This document shows positions 4,856-64,000 of a stretch of 64,000 nt of DNA, piece after piece (positions within the stretch are counted from its first letter, which is position 1; every line of letters begins with the position of its first letter). Location: positions 30,237,575 to 30,301,574 of the forward strand of contig OY726563.1 in the NCBI GenBank assembly GCA_963383645.1, given 5' to 3'. The notes under the pieces are model-generated. The model was not told the DNA's origin, did no database searches, and saw only the letters and a program-made list of their open reading frames with translations. Position numbers and translations under genes: made by a program. The stretch is from Muscardinus avellanarius. Its lineage: Eukaryota > Chordata > Mammalia > Rodentia > Gliridae.

Positions 4856-5631
4856 TTTTTGCATTACAAGTATATGAATGGCGCGGGTGCCATGTTCCCT
4901 TGCAGCACCAGGCCCCAGAGAGGAGGGGGAATCAGAATGGAGCTCAGAGCCACAGAGGAGATACGTGGGCCTCACACCCGAGGACACAGCAGCAGTGCCT
5001 TACTGCTAGCGGCGAGTTCACCGGATGGCACCAGACCAACGCACTCAACAGCCCACCAGGCTTCAGAGAGGAGCGGTGGACAGTGAGCCTAGGTGAGCCA
5101 CTGCAGAACAGTCGGGCAGAATTCGGCAGAATTTTTGGTGCAGGGAGCGTATAAAGCTCCCAGTGAATGGGCTCAGCACACCCTGCAGGGATTAAGAGTG
5201 GAGCTCAAAACCAGAGAAGAAATATGCCAGCCTCACAGCCGAGGGCGTGGCAGCGGCACCATATTGCAAACGGCAGCAGCAGCAGCAAATTCACTAAGTC
5301 CACCACAGCTTCATCAGCTCACTCAACAAGATTGAGTCAAATTGCAGCCCCTAGAGGAGAAATCCCAGGACTGTACTCCCAGGGACTTGACCCAGTGGGG
5401 GAGTAGTGGTGGCAGAGATATCACACCATAGGAGAACACCCAATCTGGCACCCCCCCCCCCTTATGGTCTAAAGCAGCCTCAATTGACTCCCAGGGACTG
5501 AGACTCTGCGATACAAGCCAGTAAAGGAGTAGTGGGGACTGAGATAGCACAGACTCGAGATCCAGAGCACCCTAAGTGAAGTCGTAGTGACCCAAGGGAA
5601 GAAACCAGAGAAGGCACAAACTTCTGAAATC

Positions 5632-6546
5632 ATGGGAGAGAGGAATAACAATGGAGCAATACATGCTCACAACCCCAAAACATCAGAACCTGATAAAACA
5701 GAAATTCAGAGATTTATAGAAGATCAAATCAGGAAAATAACTGTAGAAATAATAGAGGTGTTTCAAAAAGAATTCAGAGAGAGATAAAAAGAGATAAAGG
5801 GTGCAATTAATGAAGTAAAGGCCTCAATTCAAAGTACAAACAATCAATTAGACCACATGGAGAATAGAATCTAGCTCCTAGAAGATAATCACTCCAAAAA
5901 TGAATGCATAGTTTCTAATTTAGAAAAAAAAATCTGAAAGCTAGAATCTGACATTGAAGAAATATGGGCCCATTTTAAGAGAGCTAACCTAAGAATACTT
6001 GGAATAGAGGAGGGAAAAGAAAGTGAAACCAAAGGGATCAACAATCTCTTCAAGGAAGCAATAGAAAATTTTCCTAACATAGAGCAAGAGGTCAAAACAC
6101 AGGTCCAGGAAACTTATCGAACTCTTTTTAGATAGGATTGGAGAAGAGTATCCCCACGACACATAATTGTCAAAATGACCAATGTGGAAGCCAAGCAGAG
6201 AATCTTAAAGGCAACAAAAACAAAGGGCCAAGTGACATTCAGAGGCAAACCAATTAGAATCACTCCAGACTTCCCAAACCAAGTCATGAAAGCCAGAAGG
6301 GCTTGGAGTAACATATTCCAAACTCTAAAAGAAAACAACTTCCAGCCAAAAATGTCCTACCCAGCAAAACTTTCTATCAAATTAGATGGGGAAATAAGAA
6401 GTTTCCATGACAAACAGAAACTGAAGGAATTTATGTCTTCAAAACCAGCACTAGAGAAAATACTCAAAGAGATTAACTACAAAGAAGAAAGAGGTAACAC
6501 ACACCAGAACCAGAGAAATAAGATTTTCCATCCAACAGACAACTAA
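5632..6546 (+). pseudogene. L1 ORF1 (ORF1p) pseudogene of half-L1 copy 2
   Basis: From the homologous ATG to TAA the span is 915 bp (305 codons with stop), so overall frame is kept, but several in-frame stops interrupt it (near 5785, 5871, 5935 and 6134). The N-terminal coiled-coil region is followed by the RRM-like region and the C-terminal domain readable at 6175-6546 (RIT-DFPNQVMKARRAW motif). The family protein is a nucleic-acid chaperone acting in L1 ribonucleoprotein particles. This copy is dead. Confidence 0.8.
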
Positions 6547-6554
6547 GATTGGTT

Positions 6555-7250
6555 ATCTGTGGAGATTCATTATTTATGTTAGTCTCTTTCCTATCTCTAA
6601 ATTGTATTGTTTGCCTTTATTGTTGCTAATTTTTAGGATTTCTAGTTGGAATATTAATATACCTTCAGATATAGCATTTGGAAATATTTTATCCCATTCT
6701 ATTAGTAACTTTTAACTCTGTTTACATTGTCTTTTGATATACAATATTTTTTTTTAGGGAGTTTGTATACTCTTCTGTTGCCTGTGCCATTGAAATCATA
6801 TCCAAGAAATCACTGCCAATATCAATGTTGTGAGGTTTTATGACCCAGATTTTCTCCTAAAAGTTTATAGTCTTAAGATTTATATTTAGGTCTTTTATCT
6901 ATTTTGAGTTAATATTTGTATATGGGATTAGGTAAGGGTCCAATTTTATTCTTTTCCATGTGATTATTATTTTTCAACAATATTTAGTTAAAAGATTATT
7001 ATTTCCACCACCAAATGTTCGTGGAATCCTTGTCAAAAATAACTTGACAATATAGGGAAGAGTTTAGCTCTAGGCTTGTATTTAACTCCAATGGTTTATA
7101 TATCTGCCTTTAGAATAGTACTACACTGTTTCAATTATTGTAGCTTTATATGGTTTGAAATCAGAAAATATATATCTTCTAGCTTTGTTCTTTTTCAAGA
7201 TCGTTTTGGGTATCTAGAGTCCATATTCCATATTAGGATAGATATTTTTT
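6555..7250 (-). repeat. Inverted L1 ORF2 segment inside half-L1 copy 2
   Basis: Same antisense ORF2-derived block as at 1700-2380 and, in mirror, at about 43790-44440. It starts within 10-20 bp of the ORF1 stop codon in all copies, so the junction is inherited. Confidence 0.75.
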
Positions 7251-7312
7251 TTCTGAAAAATAAATATATAAATATATGATAGTTTTACCAAAAAAAATAG
7301 AAAAAAAATATT

Positions 7313-8245
7313 CTCTGGTAAGAAAGAAAGCAAAAAGAAATATTGAAATGTTATCTTTAAGTCATCAAAAGCTTGGTATCAGACAAATGAAACTGTTATG
7401 TGAGATTATCATTTTTAAGTTTGGATAAATTGCTATAATACTAGATGTCAACCACTAAGCCAAGCATGGGAGGGAGTGATGGGGAGAAAATGGGGTAGGG
7501 ATCGGGTGGGGGCTGACTGGGCGATGTGTGCATGTATATCTACAAAAGTTTGTATCCCACTATGATGTATGAATACAGTGCACCAATAAAAAATTTAAAA
7601 AAAAGAAACAAAAATAAATATTGAAATGTTATCTTTAAGTCATCAAAAGCCTGGTATCAGACAAATGAAACTGTTATGTGAGATTATTATTTTTAATTTT
7701 AATTTTTGGATAAATTGTTATAATACTAGATGTCAACCACTAAGCCAAGCATGGGAAGGAGGGATGGGGAGGGAACGGGGTGGGATCGTGTAGGGGCTAA
7801 CTGGGCAATGTGTGCATGTATGTCTACAGAAGTTTTTTTTTTTAAACCCACTATGATGTATGAATACAGTGCACAAATAAAAATATAATAAAATAAAAAA
7901 ATAAAAAAATAAAAATAAAACATAAAAAAAGAAAAAATATTCTCTGGTAAGAAAGAAAGCAAAAAGAAATATTGAAATGTTATCTTTAAGTCATCAAAAG
8001 CTTGGTATCAGACAAATGAAACTGTTATGTGAGATTATCATTTTTAATTTTGGATAAATTGCTATAATACTAGATGTCAACCACTAAGCCAAGCATGGGA
8101 AGGAGGGATGGGGAGAGAATGGGGTGGGGATTGGGTGGGGGCTGACTGGGCGATGTGTGCATGTATGTCTACAAAAGTTTGTATCCCACTATGATGTATG
8201 AATACAGTGCACCAATAAAAAAATGTTAAAAAAATAAAATAAATA
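7313..8245 (+). repeat. Three tandem copies of the half-L1 3' end
   Basis: The block that begins near 'tattctctggtaagaaagaa' and ends in 'cagtgcaccaataaaaaa' plus an A-rich run occurs three times. The word 'attgaaatg' starts at 7342, 7620 and 7971, giving spacings of 278 and 351 bp. Each unit contains the G-rich tract and its own A-rich end. The middle unit lacks the first roughly 30 bp. Confidence 0.9.
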
Positions 8246-9323
8246 ACTAAAAAAAAAGTATATGAGCTTTTCTGGGAGCAGTCTATGGCAAACCATAACA
8301 CTATGGAATAAATATTATTGTGAAAATAGAACAAAATAGCAAAAAAGGATATAGTTTGAAATTTATATATTGAAGATAAGTGAGATTTTAATAAAGGTAA
8401 AATTATTAATTTGTATAAAAGATAGTTATATCTTCAATGTAATCTAGTCATCAGTCTTCCTCCATGAAATTAGTTCTTTTGGTTTCATTGTCACATGGAT
8501 CATTTGTTACACTACAACTAATAACCTGAGTGGATAATCCTGCCTAAAATAACATTTGGTTAAATTTCAAGTTTTCTACCTTCATGCTATATTCTAGACA
8601 TCTTGAGTCAAGGCTTATATAACATTTTTATCAATATTTCCTCTATAACATATGTATTTATCTTGTAAAGCAATAATGGAGATTTGAGAATGTTATCTAA
8701 CACATCTGATTAATTATGTATCTCTACTTTTCATTCATTTATTATTGAATTAAATTATACTTCAAAGTGAATTCTGGCATGAACATCAAAGTACTACTCA
8801 GCCTTAGTTTCCAGAATTGGATTACTGTCTTTCTGAGAACAAATTCCCAGATATTGGTTTTGTTACCAGCTATCACTAACATTGATGCTGACATTGACAT
8901 CAACTATAATCATTGGTGATATCTGCAATATGTAATTTAAACAATGAGTAACAATACCAATGCTCAGTGGAAATAAATTGCCCATTAAAGAACAAAGGGC
9001 ATCTGTTCTGATACAGATGGTAAGCATAAATTTTACTAACTTTCAATAGAATAAAAAGAGATTTATTATAGTTTACGAAACAATATTAACCTATTTTATC
9101 ACATCAGATTTCAATGTTGAAATTTGGCTTAATATTACAGCTGTTGCTTTCATCACAGAATTTCAGAATGCAGATGTGGTTATGAGAATTTATTCCCTCA
9201 AAGCCAGAATTTCTAAACAAATTTCTTTGCCCTCTCATGTGGCTGGCATGATGTCAGCAATCATCACAGCAAAGAGTATTAAAAACAAAACATTTTTCAC
9301 TTCATATCTAAAATAAGAGCTAA
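8246..9323. other. Unassigned AT-rich DNA
   Basis: No repeat family or coding frame was recognised by eye. Confidence 0.6.
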
Positions 9324-25792: not shown

Positions 25793-25924
25793 TTTTTATT
25801 GGTGCATTGTAATCATACATCACATAGGAATACAAGACTTGAGAGGATATACAAGCACACATCATCCAATTATCCCTCATCCAATCCCCATCCCATTCCC
25901 TCCCCCTTCCTCTACCTCCTGAGT
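25793..25924 (-). mobile_element. L1-derived 3' end of composite copy A (shortened)
   Basis: Matches the start of the L1 tail of copy C (60712 onward) almost word for word ('acaagcacacatcatccaat' occurs in both), but stops after the pyrimidine-rich tract. The inner roughly 200 bp present in B and C are missing. Confidence 0.75.
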
Positions 25925-26005
25925 TTTTTTTTTTTTTTTGGGTGGTACTGGGGTTCCTGGAAGCCCTTCTTCCTCCGGGCTACACTCCCACGGGCTACAC
26001 TATTT
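25925..26005 (-). mobile_element. SINE fragment (B1-dID, long-ID subtype), B1 part missing
   Basis: A T-run and 'ggtggtactggggttcctgg' identify the right half of the antisense SINE. It breaks off at about 26005 against ERV sequence, so both lost material at one junction. Confidence 0.8.
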
Positions 26006-26772
26006 GGAAATTGGTCAAAGGTTGTTTAAAAGATCAAAAATATGCTCTGTTTCACCACCTCATCTCCTCAGGAGAACGAATCTTGTATCCCCTTACAAAA
26101 GGGAATATCAGGCTGGTTTTCCCTCAAACAAAAATGGGAAAAACAGAGACAAAATAATACTGTTACTGCTCCAAAGGGTTATCTAAGTTTCGGAGTAGCG
26201 AATGTCTCTTGTGAACATGTAAAATTTTACAAAAGCCGCTAACCTGTCTCGGGAGTTGTCAATTTATCTTTTAGGCAACTGGACGGGAGAATTTGAAACC
26301 CAACTAGAGAGATTACGCACTGCCGTGGTCACCGTCAACTCGACTCGTGTGGACATCAGTTTGGCTGAAGGACTGTCATCTTGGATAACTCGTGCCATGA
26401 ATCATCTAAAGGAATGGGCTGGATTGGGGGCCTTGATGGGATTATTGGTTGTGGCTGTGTTGTTTTGTGTCTGGTGCATTGCTCGTCTTCGCCAAAGTTT
26501 TAATCATAATACAGCCATGTTTATACAGGCCTGTGTGGCTATCGAGGCAGGACAATCACCCCAAGCCTGGCTCGCGGCAGCTAAGGCATAATGGCTCAGG
26601 TTGCAAGGCAAAGCACTGCAGCTGAGGGCACAAGTTTGGTCCTCAGGAAGAGTACGCTTGACTGCACACGGGTTAGGCACCCAAGTACCCGTCCCTAGAA
26701 AAAGGTGCCAGTGATTAATAGGGGTCAAACCTCTGCTCTTACCTGTTGCCTATAAAAACAAAAAGGGGGAAT
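26006..26772 (+). pseudogene. env: Endogenous retrovirus env remnant (transmembrane subunit tail)
   Basis: The readable frame at 26256-26591 has no ATG start and is only the C-terminal end of an env transmembrane subunit: an ectodomain end with two N-x-T sequons, a tryptophan-containing pre-membrane stretch, one hydrophobic span (about residues 56-76 of the frame), and a cytoplasmic tail of about 35 residues ending at a stop (26589-26591). Upstream the frame shifts near 26230 and the surface subunit is almost wholly absent, so no functional protein can be made. A polypurine tract (about 26757-26770) precedes the LTR. The tail layout suggests a class II (betaretrovirus-like) ERV, by inference. 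Confidence 0.8.
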
Positions 26773-27078
26773 TGTGGTGAGCCGCCATTGAAAGATGGCG
26801 CCGGCTTCCTGCCTCTGAGCTTGATTAGGCACATGGCTGTGCAGGAAGCAACTCCATATTTGGAGGCTAGGGTTGCGTAACACATGACGTGGTGGTGACC
26901 TGACGAGCGTGAGCCAGTGAGTGAGTGAGATGTGGCAAGAAGTGATTGGGTGAGTTAATGTTTATAATGCCCTGCGCGAGGCAGATCTTCGCCATTCCGC
27001 CATTACGAGTATCCTGAATAAACGGCTTGCAAGAAGAGCTTCGTGTCGTGTCTTAATCGCTGGTCGAGGGACGCGACA
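26773..27078 (+). mobile_element. 3' LTR of the class II-like ERV
   Basis: Starts TGTGGTGAGCCGCCATTG straight after the polypurine tract and ends GAGGGACGCGACA, 306 bp. AATAAA is at 27017-27022, with a TTTATAA promoter-like word near 26960. CpG content is high and the element looks young. Its outer end abuts the 50-bp array at 27079 with no visible target-site duplication, because the 5' side of the provirus is lost. Confidence 0.85.
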
Positions 27079-27705
27079 GATCCCAGCCTCGCTGGCCCTA
27101 GGACCTGCCTAACACGGTTACTTCAGCAGGCTCCAATACTGGCCTTGGAGGCTCCAGAACCAGCATTGCCTCACCACAGGCTCCGATCCCAGCCCCGCTG
27201 ACGCCAACACCAGCCTAACCCATCGGCAGGCTCTGATCCCAACCTCGGAGGCCCCAGCACCAGCCTTGCCTCATGGCAGGCTCTGATCCTGGCCTTGCTG
27301 GCCCCAGTACTGGCCTTACCCATAGGCAGGCTTTAATCCAGGCCTTGGAGGCTCCAGCACCGGCCTTTTCTCATGGCAAGCTCCAATCCCGGCCTTGCTG
27401 GCCCCTGCACCAGCCTAACCCCTCAGTAGGCTCCTATTCTAGCCTCAGAGCCCTCAGTAGCAGCCTTGCCTCATTGCAGTCTCCAATCCTGGCCTCGCTG
27501 GCCCTGGCACTGTCCTAACCCCTCAGCAGGCCCCTATCCCAGCCTCGGAGGTCCCAGCACCAGCCTTGCTTCACGGCAGGCTCTGATCCTAGCTTTGCTG
27601 GCCCCAGCACTGGCTCTGCCTCACGGCAGGCTCCAACCCCAGCTTTTCTGTTCCCATCACCAGCCTCACCCCTCGTCAGGCTCCGATTCGAGCACCCTCT
27701 TCACC
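27079..27705 (-). repeat. 50-bp tandem array (100-bp higher-order), composite copy A
   Basis: About 12 monomers of 50 bp. Two variants alternate: one carries (in sense) TGCCATGAGGCAAGGC, the other TGCCGAGGGGTTAGGC, so the true period is 100 bp. Proline/alanine-rich ORFs across it (for example 27273-27518) are produced by the array and are not genes. Confidence 0.9.
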
Positions 27706-28195
27706 TAGCAGTTTTTCCCATGTTCCCGAGGGTGCGTGGTGATCGTATTCTGCCTCTGGGGTTATTTTTCAAAAGTTCCAGGTGTAATGCATCAGATCTC
27801 TGCCTTCCCTGAGTACTGGCTGCTGCCATTGCCACCACCTCCACCATTTCAAATCTTTCCCAAGCTCTGCATGTTGTACAGTGTTCCTAAGCATGTGCGA
27901 CGGTAGCATTCGATGTTTGGGGTAATTTCTCCAGAAGATAAGGTTGGTAGGATCAGATTTCTGCCTCTCCCAAATACAAGTGTCCACCACCATCGTGGCG
28001 ACCGCTTCAAACACTGCCTTCCTCCTAGGTCTCCGCTAAACTCTCTCCTTACAAGTGATGTCCATGATTCTTAAGGATGTAGAGAAGCAGTCCTCCTTTG
28101 CGGGGAATTTTTCCAAAAGTTCCAGTTCAGTTGGATAAGTTTTGTCTGCATCTCCAGTATCCTGGCAGCTGCCACGGCCATTTTGACCCCTCTCC
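27706..28195 (-). repeat. About 175-bp repeats plus promoter-like box, composite copy A
   Basis: About three diverged units recognised by the recurring plus-strand words 'gttgtacagtgttcctaagc' and 'gatctctgccttccctgagt' and their relatives. In sense the module opens with GGAGAGGGGTCAAAATGGCC, which resembles the start of L1 5'UTRs. Confidence 0.8.
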
Positions 28196-28296
28196 AATAT
28201 ATTTATTTTCTTTTTCTTTTTCTTTTTTTTTCCTTTTTTTTTTTTTTAATAAGGGAAGACAGTATGTGTGGTTTGAGGAGGTTGTGGGATCAGGCA
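28196..28296 (-). repeat. A-rich spacer of composite copy A
   Basis: A T/C-rich run (28200-28250) is an A-rich tract in sense, preceded by a conserved module ('aggttgtgggatcaggcact'), exactly as in copy B at 42860-42953 and 47130-47250. Confidence 0.8.
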
Positions 28297-28690
28297 CTCG
28301 GTAGCACTGTGGCCCAGGCTCTGGTTCTTCCAGGTATCCGGCATGTCCCGCGTGACCCCCGCCCAGGACCCAAGGCCTTGTGACCCGGGCCCCGGTTCTT
28401 CAAGGGGTCCGGTGTGCCCCCACGTGACCCCCGCCTGGGATTCAAGGCCTTGCAACCCGGCCCCGGTTCTTCCAGGGGTCCGGTGTGCCCCGCGCAACCC
28501 CGATGGGGCCCCCCTGGGCCCTGGTTCTTCTGGGAGTCCTGCGTGCCCTGAGTGACCCCCGCCCGGGGCCCAGGGTCCTGTGTCCCGTGCCCCGGTTTTT
28601 CCAGGTGTCCGGCATGCCCTGCACAACCCCACCTGGGGCCCAGGGTCCTGTGACCAGAGGCCCGGTTCTTCTGGGAGTCCTGCATCTCTA
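28297..28690 (-). repeat. 71-bp GC-rich tandem array, composite copy A
   Basis: About 5.4 units. The word 'ggttctt' or variant recurs at 28323, 28394, 28465, 28523, 28594 and 28665 (spacings 71, 71, 58, 71, 71), so one unit has a 13-bp deletion. The array is CpG-rich. The long ORFs on both strands here are array artefacts. Confidence 0.93.
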
Positions 28691-42756: not shown

Positions 42757-42850
42757 ATGAGGGCCCTGGTCGCAAGGCCCTGGGCCCCGGGCGGGGGTCA
42801 CGTGGGGCACACTGGATCTCCTGAAGAACCGGGGCCCCGGCTGCAGTGCT
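42757..42850 (+). repeat. 71-bp array remnant, composite copy B
   Basis: Just over one unit, matching the reverse complement of 28297-28690 ('gaagaaccggggccccggct'). It marks the 5' edge of copy B. Confidence 0.85.
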
Positions 42851-42855
42851 ACCGA

Positions 42856-42985
42856 GTGCCTGATCCTACAACCTCCTCAAACCACACATACTGTCTTCTC
42901 TTATTTAAAAAAAAAAGAAAAAGAAAAGAGATAGAAAAAATAAAAGAAAAATATCGGAGAGGGGTCAAAATGGCCACGGCGGCTG
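42856..42985 (+). promoter_or_regulatory. Conserved module, A-rich spacer and L1-promoter-like box (first round of copy B)
   Basis: 'gtgcctgatcctacaacctc', an A-rich run, then GGAGAGGGGTCAAAATGGCC with an AAAATGGCC core like the YY1 site at the start of L1 5'UTRs. The same series is at 47120-47275 and, reversed, at 28170-28300. A promoter role is inferred. Confidence 0.5.
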
Positions 42986-43390
42986 CCAGGATACTGAAGA
43001 TGCAGACAAAACTTATCCAACTGAACTGGAACTTTGGGAAAATTCCCTGCGAAGGAGGACTGCTTCTTCTCTACATCCTTAAGAATCCTTGGCATTATCT
43101 GTAAGGAGAGAGTTTAGCAGAGACCCAGGAGGAAGGAGGTGTGGGAAGCAGTTGCCGCAATGGAGGTGGACACTTGTATTTGGGAGAGGCAGAAAGCTGA
43201 TCCTACCAACCTTACATTCTGCAGAAATTACCCCAACCATCGAATGCTACCGTTGTGCATGCTTAGGAACACTGGAAAACATGCAGAGTGGAAAAAGAGC
43301 TTGGGAAAGATTTGAAATGGTAGAGGCAGTGGCAATGGCAGCAGCCAGTACTAAGGGGAGGCAGAGATCTGATGCATTACACCTGGAACT
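42961..43390 (+). repeat. About 175-bp repeats, first round of copy B (left of insert)
   Basis: Diverged units with recurring words such as 'gcatgcttaggaacactgga' and 'gcagagatctgatgcattac'. The array is cut at 43390 by half-L1 copy 3 and resumes at 46203. Confidence 0.8.
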
Positions 43391-43789
43391 TTTTTTTTTT
43401 TTTTACTTTTTTATTTTTATTTTTATTTTTTTTTCTTTTTTTTTTATTGGTGCACTGTATTCATACATCATAGTGGGATACAAACTTTTGTAGACATACA
43501 TGCACACATCGCCCAGTCAGTCCCCACTCGAACCCCACCCCATTCTCTCCCCATCCCTCCCTCCCATGCTTGGCTTAGTGGTTAACATCTAGTATTATAG
43601 AAATTCATCCAAAATTAAAAATGATAATCTCACATAACAGTTTCATTTGTCTGATACCAAGCTTTTGATGACTTAAAGATAACATTTCAATATTTCTTTT
43701 TACTTTCTTTCTTACCAGAGAATATTTTTTTCTATTTTTTTTTAGTGAAACTATCATATATTTATATATTTATTTTTCAGAAAAAAAAT

Positions 43790-44440
43790 CTATCCTAATA
43801 TGGAAAATGGACTCTAGATACCCAAAATGATCTTGAAAAAGAACAAAACTAGAAGATATATATTTTCTGATTTCAAACCATATAAAGCTACAATAATTGA
43901 AACAGTGTAGTACTATTCTAAAGGCAGATATATAAACCATTGGAGTTAAATAAAAGCCTAGAGCTAAATTCTTCCCTATATTGTCAAGTTATTTTTGACA
44001 AGGTTTCCACGAACATTTGGTGGTGGAAATAATAATCTTTTAACTAAATATTGTTGAAACATAATAATTACATGGAAAAGAATAAAATTGGACCCTTACC
44101 TAATCCCATATACAAATATTAACTCAAAATAGATAAAAGACCTAAATATAAATCTTAAGACTATAAACTTTTAGGAGAAAATCTGGGTCATAAAACCTCA
44201 CAACATTGAAATTGGCAGTGATTTCTTGGATATGATTTCAATGGCACAGGCAACAGAAGAGTATACAAACTCCCTAAAAAATAAAAAATAATATTGTATA
44301 TCCAAAGACAATGTAAACAGAGTTAACAGTTACTAATAGAATGGGATAAAACATTTCCAAATGCTATATCTGAAGGTATATTAATATTCCAACTAGAAAT
44401 CCTAAAAATTAACAACAATAAAGGGAAACAATCCCATTTA
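43790..44440 (+). repeat. Inverted L1 ORF2 segment inside half-L1 copy 3
   Basis: Plus-strand L1 ORF2 3' sequence ('ccttacctaatcccatatac', 'aactcaaaatagataaaaga', 'gacctaaatataaatcttaa') lies inside a minus-strand element. Its junctions with ORF1 and with the 3' segment match copies 1 and 2. Confidence 0.85.
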
Positions 44441-44491
44441 GAGATAGGTAAAAGACTAACATAAATAATGAATCTCCACAGATAACCAGTC

Positions 44492-45409
44492 TTAGTTGTC
44501 TGTTGGATGGAAAATCTTGTTTCTCTGGTTCTGGTGTGTGTTACCTATTTCTTCTTTGTAGTTAATCTCTTTGAGTATTTTCTCTAGTGCTGGTTTTGAA
44601 GACATAAATTCCTTCAGTTTCTGTTTGTCATGGAAGCTTCTTATTTTTCCATCTAATTTGATAGAAAGTTTTGCTGGGTAGGAAATTTGTGGCTGGAAGT
44701 TGTTTTCTTTCAGAGTTTGGAATATGTTACTCCAAGCCCTTCTGGCTCTCATGACTTGGTTTGGGAAGTCTGGAGTGATTCTAATTGGTTTGCCTCTGAA
44801 TGTCACTTGGCCCTTTGTTTTTGTTGCCTTTAAGATTCTCTACTTGGCTTCCACATTGGTCATTTTGACAATTATGTGGCGTGGGGATCCTCTTCTCTGA
44901 TCCTCTATAAAGGGAGTTCTATAAGTTTCCTGGACCTGTGTATCGACCTATTGCTCTACGTTTGGAAAATTTTCTGCTATTACTTCCTTGAAGAGATTGT
45001 TGATCCCTTTGGTTTCACTTTCTTTTCCCTCCTCTATTCCAATTATTCTTAGGTTAGCTCTCTTAAAATGGGCCCATATTTCTTCAATATCAGATTCCTG
45101 CTGTCGGATATTTTTTCCTAGATTAGAAACTGTGCGTTCATTTTTGGAATGATCATCTTCTAAGAGCGAGATTCTGTTCTCCATGTGGTCTAATCGGTTG
45201 TTTGTGCTTTGAATTGAGGCCTTTACTTCATTAATTGCATCCTTTATCTCTTTTTGGCTCTCTCTGAGTTCTTTTTGAAGCACCTCTATTATTTCTACAG
45301 TTATATTCCTGATTTGATCTTCTAGAAATCTCTGATTTTCTGTTTCATTGGGTTCTGATGTTGTGGGGTTGTGGGCATTCATTGCTCCAGTATTATTCCT
45401 CTTTCCCAT
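44492..45409 (-). pseudogene. L1 ORF1 (ORF1p) of half-L1 copy 3, two nonsense codons
   Basis: From ATG (45409-45407) to TAA (44494-44492) the frame is 918 bp, 305 residues plus stop, with no frameshift. It is broken only by TAG at 44950-44948 (GAG in the relatives) and TAG at 44842-44840 (CAG in the relatives). Residues about 28-112 form a heptad-rich coiled coil, an RRM-like region starts near ANLRIIGIEEG, and the C-terminal domain carries PIRITPDFPNQVMKARRAW. The human protein has 338 residues. ORF1p trimers coat L1 RNA and act as nucleic-acid chaperones. An in-frame upstream ATG at 45454 exists, but the 45409 ATG is shared by all copies. Low decay implies the source was intact recently. 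Confidence 0.88.
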
Positions 45410-46202
45410 GATTTCGGAAATTTGTGCCTTCTCTGGGTTCTTCCCTTGGGTCACTATGACTTCACTTAAGGTGTTCTGGATCTTGAGTCTGTAGTATCTC
45501 AGACCCCACTACTCCTTTACTGGGTTGTATCACAGAATCTCCGACCCAGAGAGTCGATAGAGGCTGCTTTAGACTGTGGGGGGTGCCAGGTTGCACGTTC
45601 TCCTATGGTGTATTATCTCTGCCACCGCCCCTCCCCCACTGGGTCAAGTCCCAGGGAGTACAGTACTGGGATTTCTCCTCTGTGGCCCGCAATTTGACTC
45701 ACTGTTCTTGAGTACGCAGATGTAGCTGTACTGGATTCGGTGAATTCTCTGCTGCTGCCGCCGGTGGCAATATGGTGCTGCTGCTATGCCCTCGGCCGTG
45801 AGGCTGGCGTATTTCTTCTTGGTTTTGATTTCCACTCTAAATCCCTGCAGCGTGTGCTGAGCTCAGCCACTGGGAGCTTTAGATTTTACCTGCGGCGAGA
45901 AATCCCGCCTGGCTGTTCCGCAGTGGCTCACCTTGGCTTGCTGTAGCCGTCTGGTGAAGTCGCCGCTGCCACTGGCAGTATGGTGCTGCTGCCGCAGTCT
46001 TGGGCGTGAGGCCGGTGTATCTCCTCTGTGGCTCTGAGCTCTGTTCTCAGTCCGCTTTCTCTCTGGAGCCTGGTGATTTTTTTGTTTCTCTGGTAATGGT
46101 GTTTTCTGGCTATGAAAGGCGCTGATTTTGTGGTAATGGAGATTAGTTGTTAGCGGGGCTCTTAAGCCCCGCTTTTCTCGGTCGCCATCTTCCTGGAAGT
46201 CC
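45410..46202 (-). promoter_or_regulatory. 5'UTR/promoter region of half-L1 copy 3
   Basis: GC- and CpG-rich, with internal near-repeats: 'gcctcacg' plus a 'cagcagcaccatattgcc'-type word appear at two sites about 230 bp apart, like a partial duplication. It begins with a YY1-like GATGGCG. Promoter activity is inferred from L1 knowledge. Confidence 0.55.
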
Positions 46203-46289
46203 ACACCTGGAACTTTTGAAGAAATAACCCCAGAGGCAGAAACTACAACCACGCACCCTCGGGAATGTAGGACAACCTGCTGGGTGAAG

Positions 46290-46790
46290 AGGGTGCTTGG
46301 ATCAAAGCCTGCCGAGGGGTGAGGCCAGTGACAGGGACAGCAAAGCTGGGATTGGAGCCTGCCGTGAGACAAGGCTGGTGCTGGAGCCTCTGAGGCCAGC
46401 ATTGGAGCCTACTGAGAGGTTAGGCTGATGTCAGGGCCAGCAAGGCCGGGATCGGAACCTGCCTTGAGGCAAGGCTGGTGCTGGGGCCTCCGAGGCCGGG
46501 ATCAGAGCCTGCCAAGGGGTTAGGCTGGTGCCAGGGCCAGTGGCAGGCATCGGAGCCTGCTGTGAGGCAAGGCCAGGCCCATTACTGAGGCCTCCGAGGC
46601 CGGGAAGGGAACCTGCCGAGGGGTTAGGCCGGGGCCGGGGCCAGTGAGGCCGGGATCAGAGCCTGCCATGAGACAAGGCCAGTTCTGGGGCCTCTGAGTC
46701 CAGGATCGGAGACTTCCAAGTGGTTAGGCCGGTGCTGGGGCCAGTGAGGCAAGGATTGGAGCCTGCCATGAGGCAAGGCCAGTGCTGGGG
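46290..46790 (+). repeat. 50/100-bp tandem array, first round of copy B
   Basis: About ten 50-bp monomers alternating between the GAGGCAAGGC and GGGGTTAGGC variants. Confidence 0.9.
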
Positions 46791-47000
46791 CCTGGAGCCA
46801 GGCTGGGGGTGGGCGGCCCTACCAGCTCCCCAGAAGGCCAGGTACCGGGTTTGGGGCAGGCGTCCTGGCTTGCTCCATGGAAGGCCCAGAGCTGGGCTGG
46901 GGACTGGCGGCCAGGCCCACTCCCTGGAAGGCCCGGTGCTGGGCTGGGGATGGGCGGTCTGGTCTGCTCCCAAGAAGGCCTAGCATGGGAGGCCAAGCTG
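46790..47000 (+). repeat. 47-bp GC-rich tandem array
   Basis: The word 'gaaggcc' recurs at 46833, 46880, 46927 and 46974, exactly 47 bp apart. It is not seen in copies A or C. Overlapping long ORFs in several frames are artefacts of the period, which is not a multiple of three. Confidence 0.92.
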
Positions 47001-47029
47001 TGGGTACTGAGGAACTCAGTGCTGCTGTG

Positions 47030-47193
47030 CTGCACCAGGCCATGGTAGGCTTAGAACAGCAGATCCTGCTCTGCGCAGTGAGGCTGTGGGACTCCGCCAA
47101 TGGAAAGAAGAAAAAATTCATTGCTACCAAGTGCCTGATCCCACAACCTCTTCAAACCACGCATCCTGTTTTCTCTTATTCAAAAAAAAAAAA

Positions 47194-47229
<36 letters not shown>

Positions 47230-47275
47230 AACAAAAAAAGAGAAAAAAATATTGGAGAGGGGTCAAGATGGCCGT
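47030..47275 (+). promoter_or_regulatory. Conserved module, A-rich/(GAAA)n spacer and promoter-like box (second round of copy B)
   Basis: 'agaacagcagatcctgctct' (also at 62857-62880, reversed), then 'tgcctgatcccacaacctct', a (GAAA)n run at 47196-47231, then GGAGAGGGGTCAAGATGGCC at 47254-47273. Confidence 0.55.
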
Positions 47276-47765
47276 GGTGGCAGGCAGGTTTCTGGAGATG
47301 CAGACAAAACATATCCAACTGTCCTGGAACGTTTGGAAAAATTCCCCGCGAAGGGGGACTGCTTCTTCCTTACATGCTTAAGAATCCATCTGTAAGGAGT
47401 GAGCTAAGCGGAGACCTAGGAGGAGGGAGTGTTGGCAGCAGCAGCTGCAGTGGTGGTGGAGGCTTGTATTTGGCAGAGGCAGGGTGGGTTGGATACAACC
47501 CACCCTGATCTTCTGAAGAAATTGCCCCAAAGGTGGAATGCTACCATTGTGCATGCTCAGGAATACTGGACAACATGCAGTGTGGGAAAAGAGTTTGGGA
47601 AAGAATTGAGATGGCAGAGGCAGCAGCAATGGCAGCGGCCAGTACTTAGAAGACACAGAGATCTGAGGCAACACACCTGGATCTTTTGAAGAAATAGCCC
47701 CAGAGGCAGAATGCTACCACTGCATACACTTGGGAACTTGGGACAACATGCTGTGTGAAGAGGGT
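47276..47765 (+). repeat. About 175-bp repeats, second round of copy B
   Basis: About three units with 'gcatgctcaggaatactgga' type words, leading into the 50-bp array. Confidence 0.82.
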
Positions 47766-48990
47766 GCTCAGATCAAAGCCTGCAAAGGGGTGAGACCGGT
47801 GCTGGGGAGAGCAAGACCAGTATCTGAGCCTGCCATGAGGCAAGGCCCGGGATGGGGCCTCTGAGGCCGGGATCGGAGCCTGCCGAGGGGTTAGGCCAGA
47901 GCCGGATCCAGCGAGAACGGGATCGGAGCCTGCTGTGAGGCAAGGCCAGTGCTTGGGCTTCTGAGGCCAGGATCAGAGCCTGCTGAGGGGTTAGGCTGGT
48001 GCTGGGGCCTTTAAGTCTTGTATCGGAGCCTGTCGAGGGGTTAGAACTGTGCTGGGACCAGCGAGGCTGGGATCTGAGCCTGCCATGAGGCTAGGCGAGT
48101 GCTGGAGCCTCCGAGGCTGGGATGGGAGCCTGCCGAGGGGTTAGGCCAGTGCGGGAACCAGCGAGGCCAGGACCGGAGCCTGTTGTGAGGCAAGGATGGT
48201 GCGGGAACCTCTGAGGCCGGGGTCAGAGCTTGCCAAGGGGCGAGGCCGGTGCCGCAGCCAGTGAGGCCGGGATTGGAGCCGGCCATTAGGCTAGGCCGTT
48301 TCTGGGGCCTCTGAGGCCGGGATCAGAGCCTGTTGAGGGGTCAGGCCAGTGCCAGGGCCAGCGAGGCCAGGATCGGTGCCTGCCGAGGGGTTAGGCCAGT
48401 GCTGGGGCCAGAAAGGCCGTGATCAGAACCTGCCGAAGGTTTAGGCTGGTGCCGTGGCCAGCGAGGATGGGATTGGAATCTGCCATGAGGCAAGGCCAGG
48501 GCTGGGGCTTCTGAGGCCAGGATTGGAGCCTGCCAAGGGGTTCATCCAGAGCTGGAACCAGCAAGGACAGGATTGGAGCCTGCTGTGAGGCAAGTCTGGT
48601 GCTGGGGCCTCTGTGGCTGGGATCAGAGCCTGCCGAGGGGTGAGGCCAGTGCCTGGGCCAGTGAGGCTGGGATCGGAGCCCTCCATGAGGCAAGGCCAGT
48701 GCTGGGGCTGACGAGGCTGGGATCAGAACCTACCGAGGGGTTAGGATGGTGTCAAGGTCAGCGAGGCTGGGATCGGAGCCTGCCATTAGGCAAGGCCAGT
48801 GCTGGGGCCTCCGAGGCTGAGATCAGAGCCTGCTGTGGGGTGAGGCCCGGTGACAGGGCCAGTGAGGCCGGGATTGGGGCCTGCCATGAGGCAAGGCTGA
48901 TGCTGGAGCCAGGAGGCCTGGATCAGAGTCTACCAGGTGGCCAGGCCAGTGCTGGGGCCATCAAGAGTGGGATCGGAACTTGCAATGTGG
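47766..48990 (+). repeat. 50/100-bp tandem array, second round of copy B (longest)
   Basis: About 24 monomers of 50 bp (for example 'gaggctgg' or 'gaggccag' at 48063, 48113 and 48163), mostly alternating in two variants. Copies hold about 10, 12 and 24 monomers, so length is variable. Confidence 0.93.
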
Positions 48991-49325
48991 CATACACAGA
49001 GAAATATCAAGGAAAATAAAAAACCAGATGCTTTCCCTAATATGGAAAAACTAGGAAGAAATAGGTAATAGGAGGAGATCTAGTTGAAGAAAGGGCCCTA
49101 TAGAGGAACAGTTATGGTGACCAATCAGAGGATGGGATGGGGGAGCATGGAATCTCTTTAAAACGCATGATGTACGTAAACAAATATATCAGAGTTAATC
49201 ACAAATCAAGCATGGGATGAAGGGAAGGAGAGGGAATGAGATGGGGATTGGATAAAGGCTAATTGGATGATGTGCTTGTATATCTTCACAAGTCCTGTAT
49301 TCCATTGTGATGTATGACTAAAATG
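48991..49325 (+). mobile_element. L1-derived 3' end of composite copy B
   Basis: 'agatgctttccctaatatgg' through G-rich tract to 'gtgatgtatgactaaaatgt', then a TG/TA microsatellite in place of the A-tail. It matches the reverse complement of 60712-61040 over its whole length and joins the 50-bp array at the same point. Confidence 0.88.
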
Positions 49326-59824: not shown

Positions 59825-60042
59825 AGACCTGATCACACAGTTTAGAGGAAGGAAAGTTTACTTGCTCAAAGTTTTTGGGAAATCTTAGGGTTTAGCACTT
59901 GTGAGGCAGTCTTATGCTCAGGGCATACCAGTGGGAGTGAAGAGAGGGGGAGAATACATGAGCTCTGCTCCTCAAGTCATGGAGGCTGGAAGCAAGAAAG
60001 AGCAAGCAATCAAGGGAATTTAAAGATACAAGTATAATTCTT
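59825..60042 (-). mobile_element. MaLR-like LTR, 3' part (split by composite copy C)
   Basis: Minus-strand LTR whose other part is 63283-63466. The two parts join continuously at 'aagaattat' and match the uninterrupted LTR at 63467-63814. Confidence 0.6.
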
Positions 60043-60480
60043 TTTTTGTTGTTAGAATTACTTTTATTACCTGATAATTGCCATATATAAACCATTCACT
60101 ATAAAATTTCAACCACAATTTTAATTAATTCTGAACACAATATTCTCAAAATTCTCTCAAAAATTCTTGAGGTAAGAGTAATAATATTTGGTATAAGTAC
60201 AACAATTACAGCATAAGGTTATCAAAGGCTTATTTTAAAATAAATTATTTTAAGGTAAATTTCAAAATTTAGTATTGTTTCCTATTTCATCAAAAATCTA
60301 AATATGTAATCATTCAAATTATTACATTTAATTATTCAGAAATATTTTGAGCCCAGAAAATATATCTTAGGTATATATCTTAGGTTACTCTTTATTATTC
60401 TATCCCAATGTATGTCTAATATTCTCATGAATTACAGAGAATGTTACAGACATTTAAAGTGCATTTTTTCCATTTTTTAA
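60043..60480 (-). other. Probable 3'-transduced flank of composite copy C
   Basis: AT-rich single-copy-looking DNA between the L1-derived end (plus SINE) and the target-site duplication, ending in a short A-run (T-run at 60041-60047). It is absent from copies A and B. Confidence 0.65.
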
Positions 60481-60483
60481 TTT

Positions 60484-60694
60484 ATTTATTTTTGCAGGTC
60501 TGGGGATGGAACCCAGGAGTATTTGACTTCCGAGCTACACCTCCTGCCCTATTTTTTATTCTTTATTTTGAAACCGGGTCTCAAGGAGTTGCAGAGGGCC
60601 TCACTAAGTAGATAAGGCTGTCTGAGAACCACAATCCTCCGGTCTCAGCCTCCTGAATGCTGAGATAACAAGTGTGCGCCACCAAAACCAGCTT
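60484..60694 (-). mobile_element. B1-dID SINE inside the transduced part of copy C
   Basis: Antisense in the window ('ggtctggggatggaacccag', 'accaaaaccagctta'). It lies between the L1-derived end and the transduced DNA, so it was probably at the source locus or arrived later. Confidence 0.82.
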
Positions 60695-60711
60695 ATTTTT
60701 AAATTTAATAT

Positions 60712-61040
60712 ATTTTTATTGGTGTATTATCGTCAAACATCTCAATGGAATACAAGACTTGTGAGGATATACAAGCACACATCATCCAATTAGCTTTTAT
60801 TCAATCCCATCCCATTCCCTCCCCCTCCCTCGATCCCATGCTTGATTTAGTGATTAACTTTGATATAATTGTTTAAGTACATCATGTACTTTAAAGAGAT
60901 TCCATCCCATCCACTCTGATAGGTCACCTTAATTGTTCCTCCATAAGGCCCTTTCTTCAACTATATTTCCTCCTATTACCTATTTCCTCCTAGTTTTTGC
61001 ATATTAGGGAAAGCATCTGATTTTTTATTTTCTGTGATAT
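60712..61040 (-). mobile_element. L1-derived 3' end of composite copy C
   Basis: Same segment and same junction with the 50-bp array as in copy B (48991-49325). It includes the G-rich tract (minus strand, about 60800-60835) and an 'accaataaaaatatatt' end. Confidence 0.88.
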
Positions 61041-61067
61041 TTCTGTTTATGCTGCATTGCAGGTTCC

Positions 61068-61562
61068 AATCTTGCTCTTGAAAGCCACGGCACCTGCCTA
61101 GCCACCCGTCAGACTCTGATCCCAGCCTCAGAGGCCCCAGCACTGGCCTTGCCTTAAGGCAGGCTACTACTATCCAGGCCTCGCTGGCTCCAGAAACAGC
61201 CTCACCCCTTGGCAGGCTCAGATCCCGTCCTGGAAGCCCCAGCACCGGCCTTGCCTCACAGAAGGCTCCGATCCTGGCCTCGCTGGCCCCGGCACTGGCC
61301 TCACCCCTTGACATGCTCTGATTCCGGCCTTGGAGGTCCCAGCAACGACCTTGCCTCATGGCAGGCTACGATCATGGCCTCGTGGGCCCTGCACTGGCCA
61401 TCCCTTAAGGCAGGCTCCTATCCTGGCCTCACTGGCCCTAGCACAGGCCTCACCACATGGCAGGCTCCAATTCCAGCTTCACTGGCCCTGGCACCGGCCT
61501 CGCCATGCGGCAGGCTCCTATCCTGGCCTCAGAGGCCCAGGCACCGGCCTTGCTGTGCATAG
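61068..61562 (-). repeat. 50/100-bp tandem array, composite copy C
   Basis: About ten monomers with the same two alternating variants as in copies A and B. Confidence 0.92.
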
Positions 61563-61617
61563 GGCTCTGGTCTCTGTCACTATGAGCAGGTCATCTACAA
61601 ATGTTCCCTTTTATCTT

Positions 61618-61822
61618 CTTTTTTTTTTTTTTGGTGGTACTGTGGTTCCTGGAAACCCTTCTACCCCCAGGCTACACTCCTAGAGATCTATTTTTTTATA
61701 TATATTTTTATTTGGAAAGAGGGTCTCTTAAGCCAGCAAGGCTGGCTTCAAACCTGCATGATCCTCCTGTCTCTGCCTCCCAAGCATGGGGATTACAAGC
61801 GTGTGTCACCATGCCCAGCATT
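61618..61822 (-). mobile_element. B1-dID SINE (long-ID subtype) nested in copy C
   Basis: Antisense T-run, 'ggtggtactgtggttcctgg', ending 'caccatgcccagca'. Flanks 'gttccctttt' and 'ttcccttttt' are a probable duplication. Confidence 0.88.
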
Positions 61823-62100
61823 CTTCCCTTTTTTTTATTAATATGAGAAAGCAGTACATATCTTTTGCAAAAGCTGGGACCCCAAATACCTAGTAACAAT
61901 GAGTTTTGTCTTCCCTCCAAAGGCAAAGGTCCATAGTTTCACTTCGGAGAGCAGGCTCTGCTGCTTCACATGTACCCTGGCCTGCTCTGCACAGAGGAGC
62001 ATGGTGGCCATGAGGGCTGGTGTCTCCCAGAACACACACCATGGCAACCCATCCCGGGTATGCAAGGCTCCCTTTGATACCCCCCAAATCCTTTTACCAC
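61823..62100 (-). other. Conserved module and A-rich spacer of copy C
   Basis: In sense: 'agcagagcctgctctccgaa', 'ctcattgttactaggtattt', 'actgctttctcatattaata', an A-run. This is the equivalent of 47040-47190 in copy B, but here it lies after the 175-bp repeats, not before them. Confidence 0.7.
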
Positions 62101-62852
62101 TTAGCCTGTTGTCCAGAATTCCCAAGAATGTGTGGCAGGAGCAGTCTACTTTTGGAGAGATTTCCTCAAAAGTTCAAGGTAGATTGTACTGGATCTATCT
62201 GCCCCTTCAAATACTGGTCACCACCACTCCCGCTGCAGCCACCGCCATACCAGTTCTCTCCCGAATACCTTTCCAGCACAGTATGTTTTCCAGAATTCCC
62301 CAGCATGTGCAGCAGTAGCAGTCTACCTTTGAGGATATTTCTTTAAAATTTTAAGTTGTTTTGGATTGGATCTCTGCCTCTAGCAAATACTGACCACCGA
62401 TGCTGCTGCCACAGCCATCTCGGTTCTCTTCCAAGCACCTTCTTCACACAGCATGTTGTCCCACATTCCTGAGCATGTGCAGTGGTAGCATTCTACCTTT
62501 GGGGTGATTTCTTCAAAAGATTAAGGTGGATTGAATGAGATCTCTGCCTCTCCTGAATACTGGCTGCTACCATTCCCGCTGCCTCCACCATCTCAATTCT
62601 CCCCCAAACACTTTTCCCACACAGCATCTTGTCCAGAATTCCTGAGCATGCACGGCAGTAGCATTCTACCTTTGGGGGGATTTCTTCAAAAGGTCAAGGT
62701 GGACTGGATTAGATCTCTGCCTCTCCCAAATACTAGCTGCTGCCGCTGCCACCGCACCACCACCACTGTTACCACCATCTCAGTTCTCTCCCAAACACTC
62801 TTCTCACACAGCAAGCTGTCCAGAATTCCTAAGCAAGCGTGGCCATAGCAGC
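62101..62852 (-). repeat. About 175-bp tandem repeats, composite copy C
   Basis: Five units. Equivalent points ('gtccagaatt' type) fall at 62113, 62290, 62460, 62633 and 62820 (spacings 177, 170, 173, 187). A CTG/CCG/CCA-rich triplet stretch inside each unit varies most in length. Confidence 0.9.
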
Positions 62853-63282
62853 CTACCGCAATAGAGCAGGATCTGCTGTTCTGAGCACTCCATGGCCCCC
62901 AGCACACCATAGAGGAGCTCCCAGGGACTTGTGGCTGGGCTTCCTGCCCAGCACTGCTAGGCTCCCTCCACCATGTCCAGGTCATTTTTTTTGCAAGGTA
63001 TTTTATTAAGAGTTCCCCACCATGTTCAGCTGAAGCAGTCTTTTCTCTAATCTTTTCTGGGATGTTCTTCCAAAAATCACTTTTCTTGTGTGGCTGGCGC
63101 TTCCTTGTCATCTTGCTTCTAATTCTGCCATTATCCATTCTCTCTCCTGTATTCTAGATAGGAAGTCACTGCTGTAAATGTCTCCTTAAGTCATCCCACT
63201 CAGATATTAAACCAAATCTGGTGTCCAGGCCTTCTCTGAGGAATGCATGTCCTTTTCAGCGGCCGCCATTGTCCCTCCTCCA
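62853..63282 (-). other. 5' module of composite copy C with a 150-codon ORF
   Basis: Begins at the insertion point with a GC-rich TGGAGGAGGGACAATGGCGGCCGC-like start (YY1-type core). The ORF 63138-62686 starts MDNGRIRSKMTRKRQPHKK, a basic start resembling the N-terminus of some L1 ORF1 proteins, then runs into the 175-bp repeats. I do not recognise a domain. Protein production is unproven. Confidence 0.5.
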
Positions 63283-63466
63283 ATACAAGCATAATTCTTA
63301 AGGCCACACCCCAGGGACCTACCTTCTCCAGACACACTGTATCAATCTAGGCTACCGCTCAGGCCATTCACCTACTAATGAAATTACAGCCCTCATGACT
63401 TAACTACATCAAATAGGAACACCAATAAATGACAAATTTAGGGGGCATTTTATATCTAACTATAAC
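63283..63466 (-). mobile_element. MaLR-like LTR, 5' part (split by composite copy C)
   Basis: Reverse complement starts TGTTATAGTTAGATATAAAA, followed by 'tgaaattacagccctcatga' (plus strand) as in the neighbouring LTR. Continues at 60042 downward. Confidence 0.6.
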
Positions 63467-63814
63467 ACTGATTCCTGGACATTCCATGTGAAGCTGAGGT
63501 CTATGGATCTCAGGACATGTTGGTGGGAAGCTGACAGAAGGAGAAAAACAGGCTTTTTTACTCATATCATGGAGGCTGGAAGCAGAGAGCAAGCAAGCAA
63601 GGGGATTCAAAGACACAACATAATCCCAAAGACCACACAAGAAACTATCTTCTCCAGCCACACCTTACTGGCCTAGGTCACCACTCAGGCCACAGTAAAT
63701 ACATCACAAAGGATTTATCCAGTGATGAGATTACAGCCCTCATGACTCAATTACATCAACTAGGAACACTAATAAATGAACTCTTCGGGGGACATTCTAT
63801 ATCTAACTATAACA
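63467..63814 (-). mobile_element. MaLR-like LTR, uninterrupted neighbour
   Basis: Reverse complement starts TGTTATAGTTAGATATAGAA. It shares the block order of the split LTR and gives the sequence across the target site ('cattatg'-type join) without an insert. Confidence 0.6.
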
Positions 63815-64000
63815 CTTTCCACCAGTCAAAACCAGTATAGGACAAGGAAGTTCTAGAGAGAAAGTCCAAAGTAACTAGCCTCCCAGAACACAGAGCAAAA
63901 CTGACCAGGCAGAATTGGAGATTATGCATTACTTACCATTCTAGATTTTCCTCAAAACTTTCACACTACTGCTACCAGAGCTCAGTAAATATTTTATTGG
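63815..64000. other. Unassigned DNA to window end
   Basis: Nothing recognised. Confidence 0.5.

Follow-up and report, generated by a model that had tools for sequence, protein, structure and literature searches.

We analyzed a window of 64,000 nucleotides from the rodent Muscardinus avellanarius (contig OY726563.1, 30237575-30301574), in which an earlier note had described three places (25793-28690, 42757-49325 and 60043-63282; hereafter units A, B and C) as an SVA-like composite of GC-rich tandem arrays and an L1 3' end. Units A, B and C are very probably copies of one interspersed, non-autonomous, non-long-terminal-repeat (non-LTR) retrotransposon family, an L1-mobilized analogue of SVA and LAVA built from other parts. 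A full young copy comprises a GC-rich 5' array, a leader, an A-rich tract, a box (GGAGAGGGGTCAAGATGGCC) with monomers, a 50/100-bp variable number tandem repeat (VNTR) and an L1 3' end. The copies are dispersed as a unit, and they have a fixed joint between array and tail, target-site duplications (TSDs), variable 5' truncation, tails, and modules that are inherited together.

Dispersal as a unit with a fixed array-to-tail joint

Two queries were searched against the host genome (2,497,143,478 bases). With the first, which held the box, the monomers and the 50-bp array and was free of the tail, 40 matches were scored out of 14705 first-look candidates and 20 loci were fetched; with the second, which spanned the joint, 40 were scored out of 9268 and 10 loci were fetched. 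Both totals count first-look candidates and not copies, and the copy number would by inference lie in the thousands to tens of thousands. In all 20 loci chosen without the tail, the array was followed by the same ~334-bp L1-type tail (gap of 13-82 bp between BLAST edges), and when these loci were compared together with B and C, the whole joint aligned at one position in all of them (22 of 22). The leader segment PREBOX was present in 20 of the 20 loci and PREBOX2 in 16. All 40 scored matches of the joint query crossed the joint, with 90-92% identity (the window itself, 100%), and were distributed over 19 contigs. The presence of array before the tail in all ten joint-chosen loci is built into the query, which contains ~112 nucleotides of array; eight of these loci had nothing upstream of the array, being 5'-truncated inside it, and two reached the box and the leader. 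Six further copies were found in 135,816 bp of flank, a number biased by the choice of loci, and three more clusters there were tail-only. The flanks of the 10-kb locus L026 hold three further family pieces, which suggests local clustering.

The same data bear on whether the copies arose as independent chimeras, through template switches that joined an array transcript to L1 RNA, with no heritable family behind them. Chimeras of L1 and other RNAs have been described for the human lineage (PMC13174262). However, the joint is at the same place in every copy, and the modules at the two ends have a common history. The box-monomer region and the tail are separated by the VNTR, at roughly 0.9-2.3 kb from each other, and the distances between copies computed from one were correlated with those computed from the other (Mantel r = 0.762, 0 of 9999 permutations). 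The sample consisted of 20 copies, B and 19 loci; L022 was excluded, its tail value of 31% reflecting a misplaced window, and A and C were left out as each is without one part. This correlation implies that the modules moved as one unit, and the 5' and the 3' modules divided the copies in the same way, 7 being older and 13 younger. Measured outside CpG-type sites from the majority consensus of the sample, which is biased to the younger copies, the divergence of the box-monomer region was 1.8-7.4% in the younger group and 8.4-12.0% in the older, and that of the tail 2.8-8.1% and 8.0-9.6%, respectively, with L022, A and C outside both groups. On the 22 of 22 joint alignments and the Mantel result we rejected independent chimeras, whose probability we put very low.

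Unit C occupies exactly 60043-63282 on the minus strand and is flanked by 17-bp TSDs with one mismatch, AAGAATTATGCTTGTAT on the 5' side (63283-63299) and AAGAATTATACTTGTAT on the 3' side (60026-60042), and both flanks align to a neighboring copy of the surrounding repeat (63500-63830) that lacks the insertion, a paralogous empty site. Clear TSDs of 10-17 bp, abutting the 5' array and following the 3' tail, were read in nine of the 20 tail-free-chosen loci (L010, L012, L015 with one mismatch, L016, L018, L021, L023, L024 and L028), and the length between them was 2275-3720 bp. Five of the ten joint-chosen loci (L031, L034, L035 with one mismatch, L036 and L038) had TSDs of 13-19 bp at the truncation point or at the array start. 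The sequence across the start of the TSD is TT|AA in L015, L016 and C, and a TTAAAA-like run lies within 5 bases of its start in L010, L012, L021 and L028, all read by eye. The 5' truncation point varies between copies, and most tails have the sequence ..CACCAATAAAA with an A- or AT-rich stretch behind it, with AATAAA and A/T-rich tails in family copies.

The closeness of three array-built copies, all within 40 kb, together with several close copies in L026 and L022, could also be what a local or segmental duplication or a satellite would leave, with A, B and C as its pieces. The copies, on 19 contigs in the joint search alone, with their differing flanks, TSDs and truncations, speak against this, and because of the dispersed joint, the TSDs and the empty site of C we rejected it as extremely improbable. 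The many dispersed copies with TSDs expected in the earlier note were found, and two outcomes it had named as contrary, a joint present at this locus alone and satellite blocks, were not observed; instead, there are interspersed insertions with TSDs.

Several points weigh against the reading of A, B and C as copies of an L1-mobilized family. The first 20 loci are those that matched B most closely, not a random sample. No acceptable TSD was recognized in nine of them (L009, L013, L014, L017, L019, L020, L022, L025 and L027) or in five of the ten joint-chosen loci (L029, L030, L032, L033 and L037), and those of L011 and L026 were weak. Of the true pairs, 9 of 20 had an automatic TSD score of at least 12, vs. 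15 of 380 mismatched pairs, with chance matches rising in SINE-rich (short interspersed nuclear element) flanks. Three of these nine automatic pairs (L015, L017 and L025) were rejected, so that the automatic and hand-read sets share six loci, L015 (with another pair), L021 and L024 having been added by eye; the high automatic scores of L017 and L033 are due to SINE flanks. For the ten joint-chosen loci, 9 of 90 mismatched pairs reached the lowest accepted score (10) and 5 of 90 reached 13. The endonuclease sites given above were placed by eye and without statistics. Finally, the young L1 at locus L039 has a 3' untranslated region (UTR) unlike the family tail, and therefore a present L1 may not recognize the tail.

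Origin of the tail and of the 5' modules

Judged from its alignments, the tail consists of the final ~15 codons of ORF2 followed by a 3'UTR from an older L1 lineage. The earlier note had the 50-bp array joined to the last 330 bp of an L1 in B and C; the joint is indeed common to both in the self-comparison of the window, but L1 homology starts ~14-22 nucleotides after 48992, and those first nucleotides have no L1 match. For three L1s, alignment to the tail consensus begins at its position 23-30 (~74-75%): two in the window, at 49.77-50.10 kb (RVT_1 upstream) and 16.5-16.8 kb (ORF1 domain), and a third in L027. The L1 of L039, which has open frames of 329 and 1279 amino acids, matches tail positions 25-72 only, corresponding to the last ORF2 codons (~47 nucleotides). 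Confined in this way, the match places the start of the L1 part ~15 codons before the ORF2 stop and assigns the tail 3'UTR to an older lineage rather than to the young L1 of L039. The 3'UTR of this young L1 family is also unlike that of the older L1s in the window.

The 5' modules could instead be the promoter monomers that made up the 5'UTR of an L1 subfamily, now extinct, whose ORF1 and ORF2 were lost by internal deletion. Such an ORF-less L1 concerns the origin and overlaps with our explanation, as it would still be mobilized by L1 in trans, but there would be no multi-source composite; we give it tentative credence only. Rodent L1 5'UTRs carry, close to the 5' end, tandem monomers of ~175-200 bp that have a YY1-like core. 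The family resembles them in its tandem ~175-bp units beside the 5' end, which recall mouse L1 monomers, and in the CAARATGGCC core of the box, which we take to be YY1-like; the L039 L1 begins near CAAAATGGCG at its 5' end. The likeness of the box to the start of the L039 5'UTR is limited to the short CAARATGGC core, and the core pattern is intact in 12 of 20 copies. Against this origin, the 5' modules showed no similarity beyond shuffles to the 5'UTR of HAL1-like L1s or of L039, L040 gave no module match, and none of five ORF1 copies had modules within 1.5 kb upstream of ORF1 (for one of them only 0.67 kb is visible, and for a sixth, in L027, the locus stops short). The L1 5' ends compared were few and of three kinds (HAL1-like, L039 and L040), none of them known as the older lineage of the tail. 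Unlike the rodent L1 monomers, the family modules precede a VNTR and an L1 tail, not ORF1. A slight excess over shuffles was seen between two modules of the element itself, ARR50 and the box-monomer consensus (score 30, shuffle maximum 28). Nine read-through frames gave no credible Pfam domain, and a coding origin of the 5' modules was rejected on this result, the lone weak match (E 0.044) being below the cut-off and not believed. Rfam gave no match, but the SINEs of the window likewise went unreported by Rfam.

For an L1-mobilized composite, the following course may be proposed. RNA polymerase II would start in the GC-rich 5' arrays, the RNA would remain untranslated, and its L1-derived 3' end and poly(A) would present it to L1 ORF2p, which would act in trans and insert the element via target-primed reverse transcription.

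Units A, B and C and other L1 elements in the window

Tandem Repeats Finder placed 50/100-bp arrays at 27.1-27.7, 46.3-46.8, 47.8-49.0 and 61.1-61.6 kb of the window, a 71-bp array at 28308-28491 (reaching 28630 in the 129-bp row), a 173-bp array at 62081-62741 and a 47-bp array at 46852-46980, in agreement with the 71-, ~175- and 50/100-bp arrays reported in the earlier note. The sharing of modules among A (minus strand), B (plus) and C (minus) was likewise reproduced by self-comparison, and the box occurs three times in the window with at most 3 mismatches, at 28176 (minus), 42956 (plus) and 47254 (plus), where 0.01 was expected.

The region of B (42757-49325) had been described as one composite. 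The modules are there, but the region is not one element: an older unit is followed in tandem by a young one, and the older unit contains a nested ORF1-only L1. The young unit (46794-49325, plus strand) starts, as placed by eye, with a GC-rich 5' array of 47-bp repeats (46794-46995), and several TSD-bounded young copies have their 5' ends in a similar array. It continues with the leader (47000-47185; PREBOX2 47000-47112, PREBOX 47110-47185), an A-rich/GAAA tract that varies between copies (47182-47250), the box (47254-47273) in a region of related monomers of about 175 bp (47250-47770), the central GC-rich 50/100-bp VNTR (47777-48991) and, after the fixed joint, the tail (48992-49325), in which L1 homology runs from about 49006-49013. 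The older unit (42757-46793, plus strand) begins with a fragment of the 71-bp array (42757-42850, from self-comparison), followed by the leader and A-rich tract (42844-42955), box and monomers (42956-43389, broken at 43389), and the remaining monomers with the 50-bp array (46203-46793), which run into the 5' array of the young unit without an L1 tail. It is split by a foreign 2.8-kb L1 in antisense (43390-46202, minus strand) with an 11-bp TSD (43379-43389 and 46203-46213); the same spot is uninterrupted in A, at 27775. Two family units also stand head to tail at L022:4001-9324, and there as in B the L1 tail of the first unit is truncated or missing. Such pairs could be the outcome of recombination across the arrays or of read-through that began in an upstream copy.

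Unit A, on the minus strand, consists of the 71-bp array (28308-28685), the monomers with the box (27690-28197; box 28176-28195), the 50-bp array (27079-27687) and, at its end, the last ~118 nucleotides of the family tail (25795-25912, 94% to the tail consensus). The L1 end, which had been noted in B and C and is present in both, thus exists in A too, though in this short form. Between the 50-bp array and the tail end lie a 3' fragment of an endogenous retrovirus with an LTR (~26000-27078, minus strand, read by eye) and then a SINE fragment. No TSD was recognized at the outer ends of A and B in the flanking contexts inspected.

Unit C, also on the minus strand, has an alternative 5' start with 3.8 copies of the 173-bp monomer (62081-63282), a 50/100-bp array (61110-61553) with a SINE upstream (61625-61819), and the L1 tail with the same joint (60707-61058). 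The insertion further includes a SINE and ~430 bp past the tail (60043-60706), ending in AATAAAAG..poly(A), with its AATAAA, directly before the TSD; this segment within the TSDs is a candidate 3' transduction.

In the insertion at 43390-46202, domains of L1 ORF1 but no match to a reverse transcriptase were found, and it is therefore HAL1-like. Short ORF1-only L1s of one common structure lie at 282-2543, 4906-8260 and 43390-46202 of the window and at L027:8174-10000, and a stretch at 7602-8246 is a tandem duplication (351-bp period, 1.9 copies) of a HAL1-like L1 3' end. The copies in L027 and in B are ~97% identical over ORF1 and the middle and 90% at the 3' end, implying that the HAL1-like family was active recently. 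In an ORF1-domain search, all 150 scored matches (of 38950 candidates) were without an internal stop, most of them in 329-amino-acid open frames with the same score, which indicates recent L1 activity in the host genome. For the ground squirrel, quiescence of long interspersed nuclear elements and SINEs has been reported (PMC5857283).

Relation to known retrotransposons

According to PMC4432496, VNTR composites are restricted to hominoid primates, apart from the SVA2 precursor, which macaque has too, and our literature searches of open-licence PMC papers returned no rodent VNTR composite. The family shares with SVA and with LAVA, PVA and FVA the lack of any ORF seen, a central VNTR of GC-rich ~50-bp units, a variant 3' module, a poly(A)-type tail and TSDs. 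In contrast to the CT-hexamer of those elements, its 5' ends lie in GC-rich arrays: the 5' parts of nine TSD copies (eight clear, L026 weak) start there and have no 5' CT-hexamer. No Alu-like region was noticed on reading the family copies, to which no Alu alignment was made. The family also differs in having an L1 tail instead of SINE-R or L1ME/Alu, and an extra box-monomer region. It is an analogue of the VNTR composite retrotransposons and not a demonstrated member, and the earlier idea of an SVA-like composite of different parts holds in this sense, that it works like SVA without being SVA.

Other classes fit less well. HAL1, which keeps ORF1 (PMC5753468), is likewise a non-autonomous L1 derivative with an L1 3' end, but the family is without an ORF, and neither ORF1 nor ORF2 of autonomous L1s was found in its copies. 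Unlike satellite DNA, it does not form long tandem blocks at few sites, and its 2275-3720 bp between TSDs (nine copies) compare with hundreds of base pairs for a SINE.

We lean towards the view that VNTR-cored composite retrotransposons arose a second time, independently, outside the hominoid primates, convergently and from unrelated modules, and that the family is abundant in a genome with an L1 of still young appearance. If this is true, joining a GC-rich VNTR to a 3' end that L1 can recognize would seem to be a repeatable way of parasitizing L1. With different parts in the same layout, a convergent family would allow one to ask which features (the GC-rich VNTR, the YY1-like leader or the L1 3' end) make a good L1 substrate. 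Such a family would also mean that a non-hominoid mammal has a large number of mobile VNTRs and candidate promoters, which may have gone unannotated.

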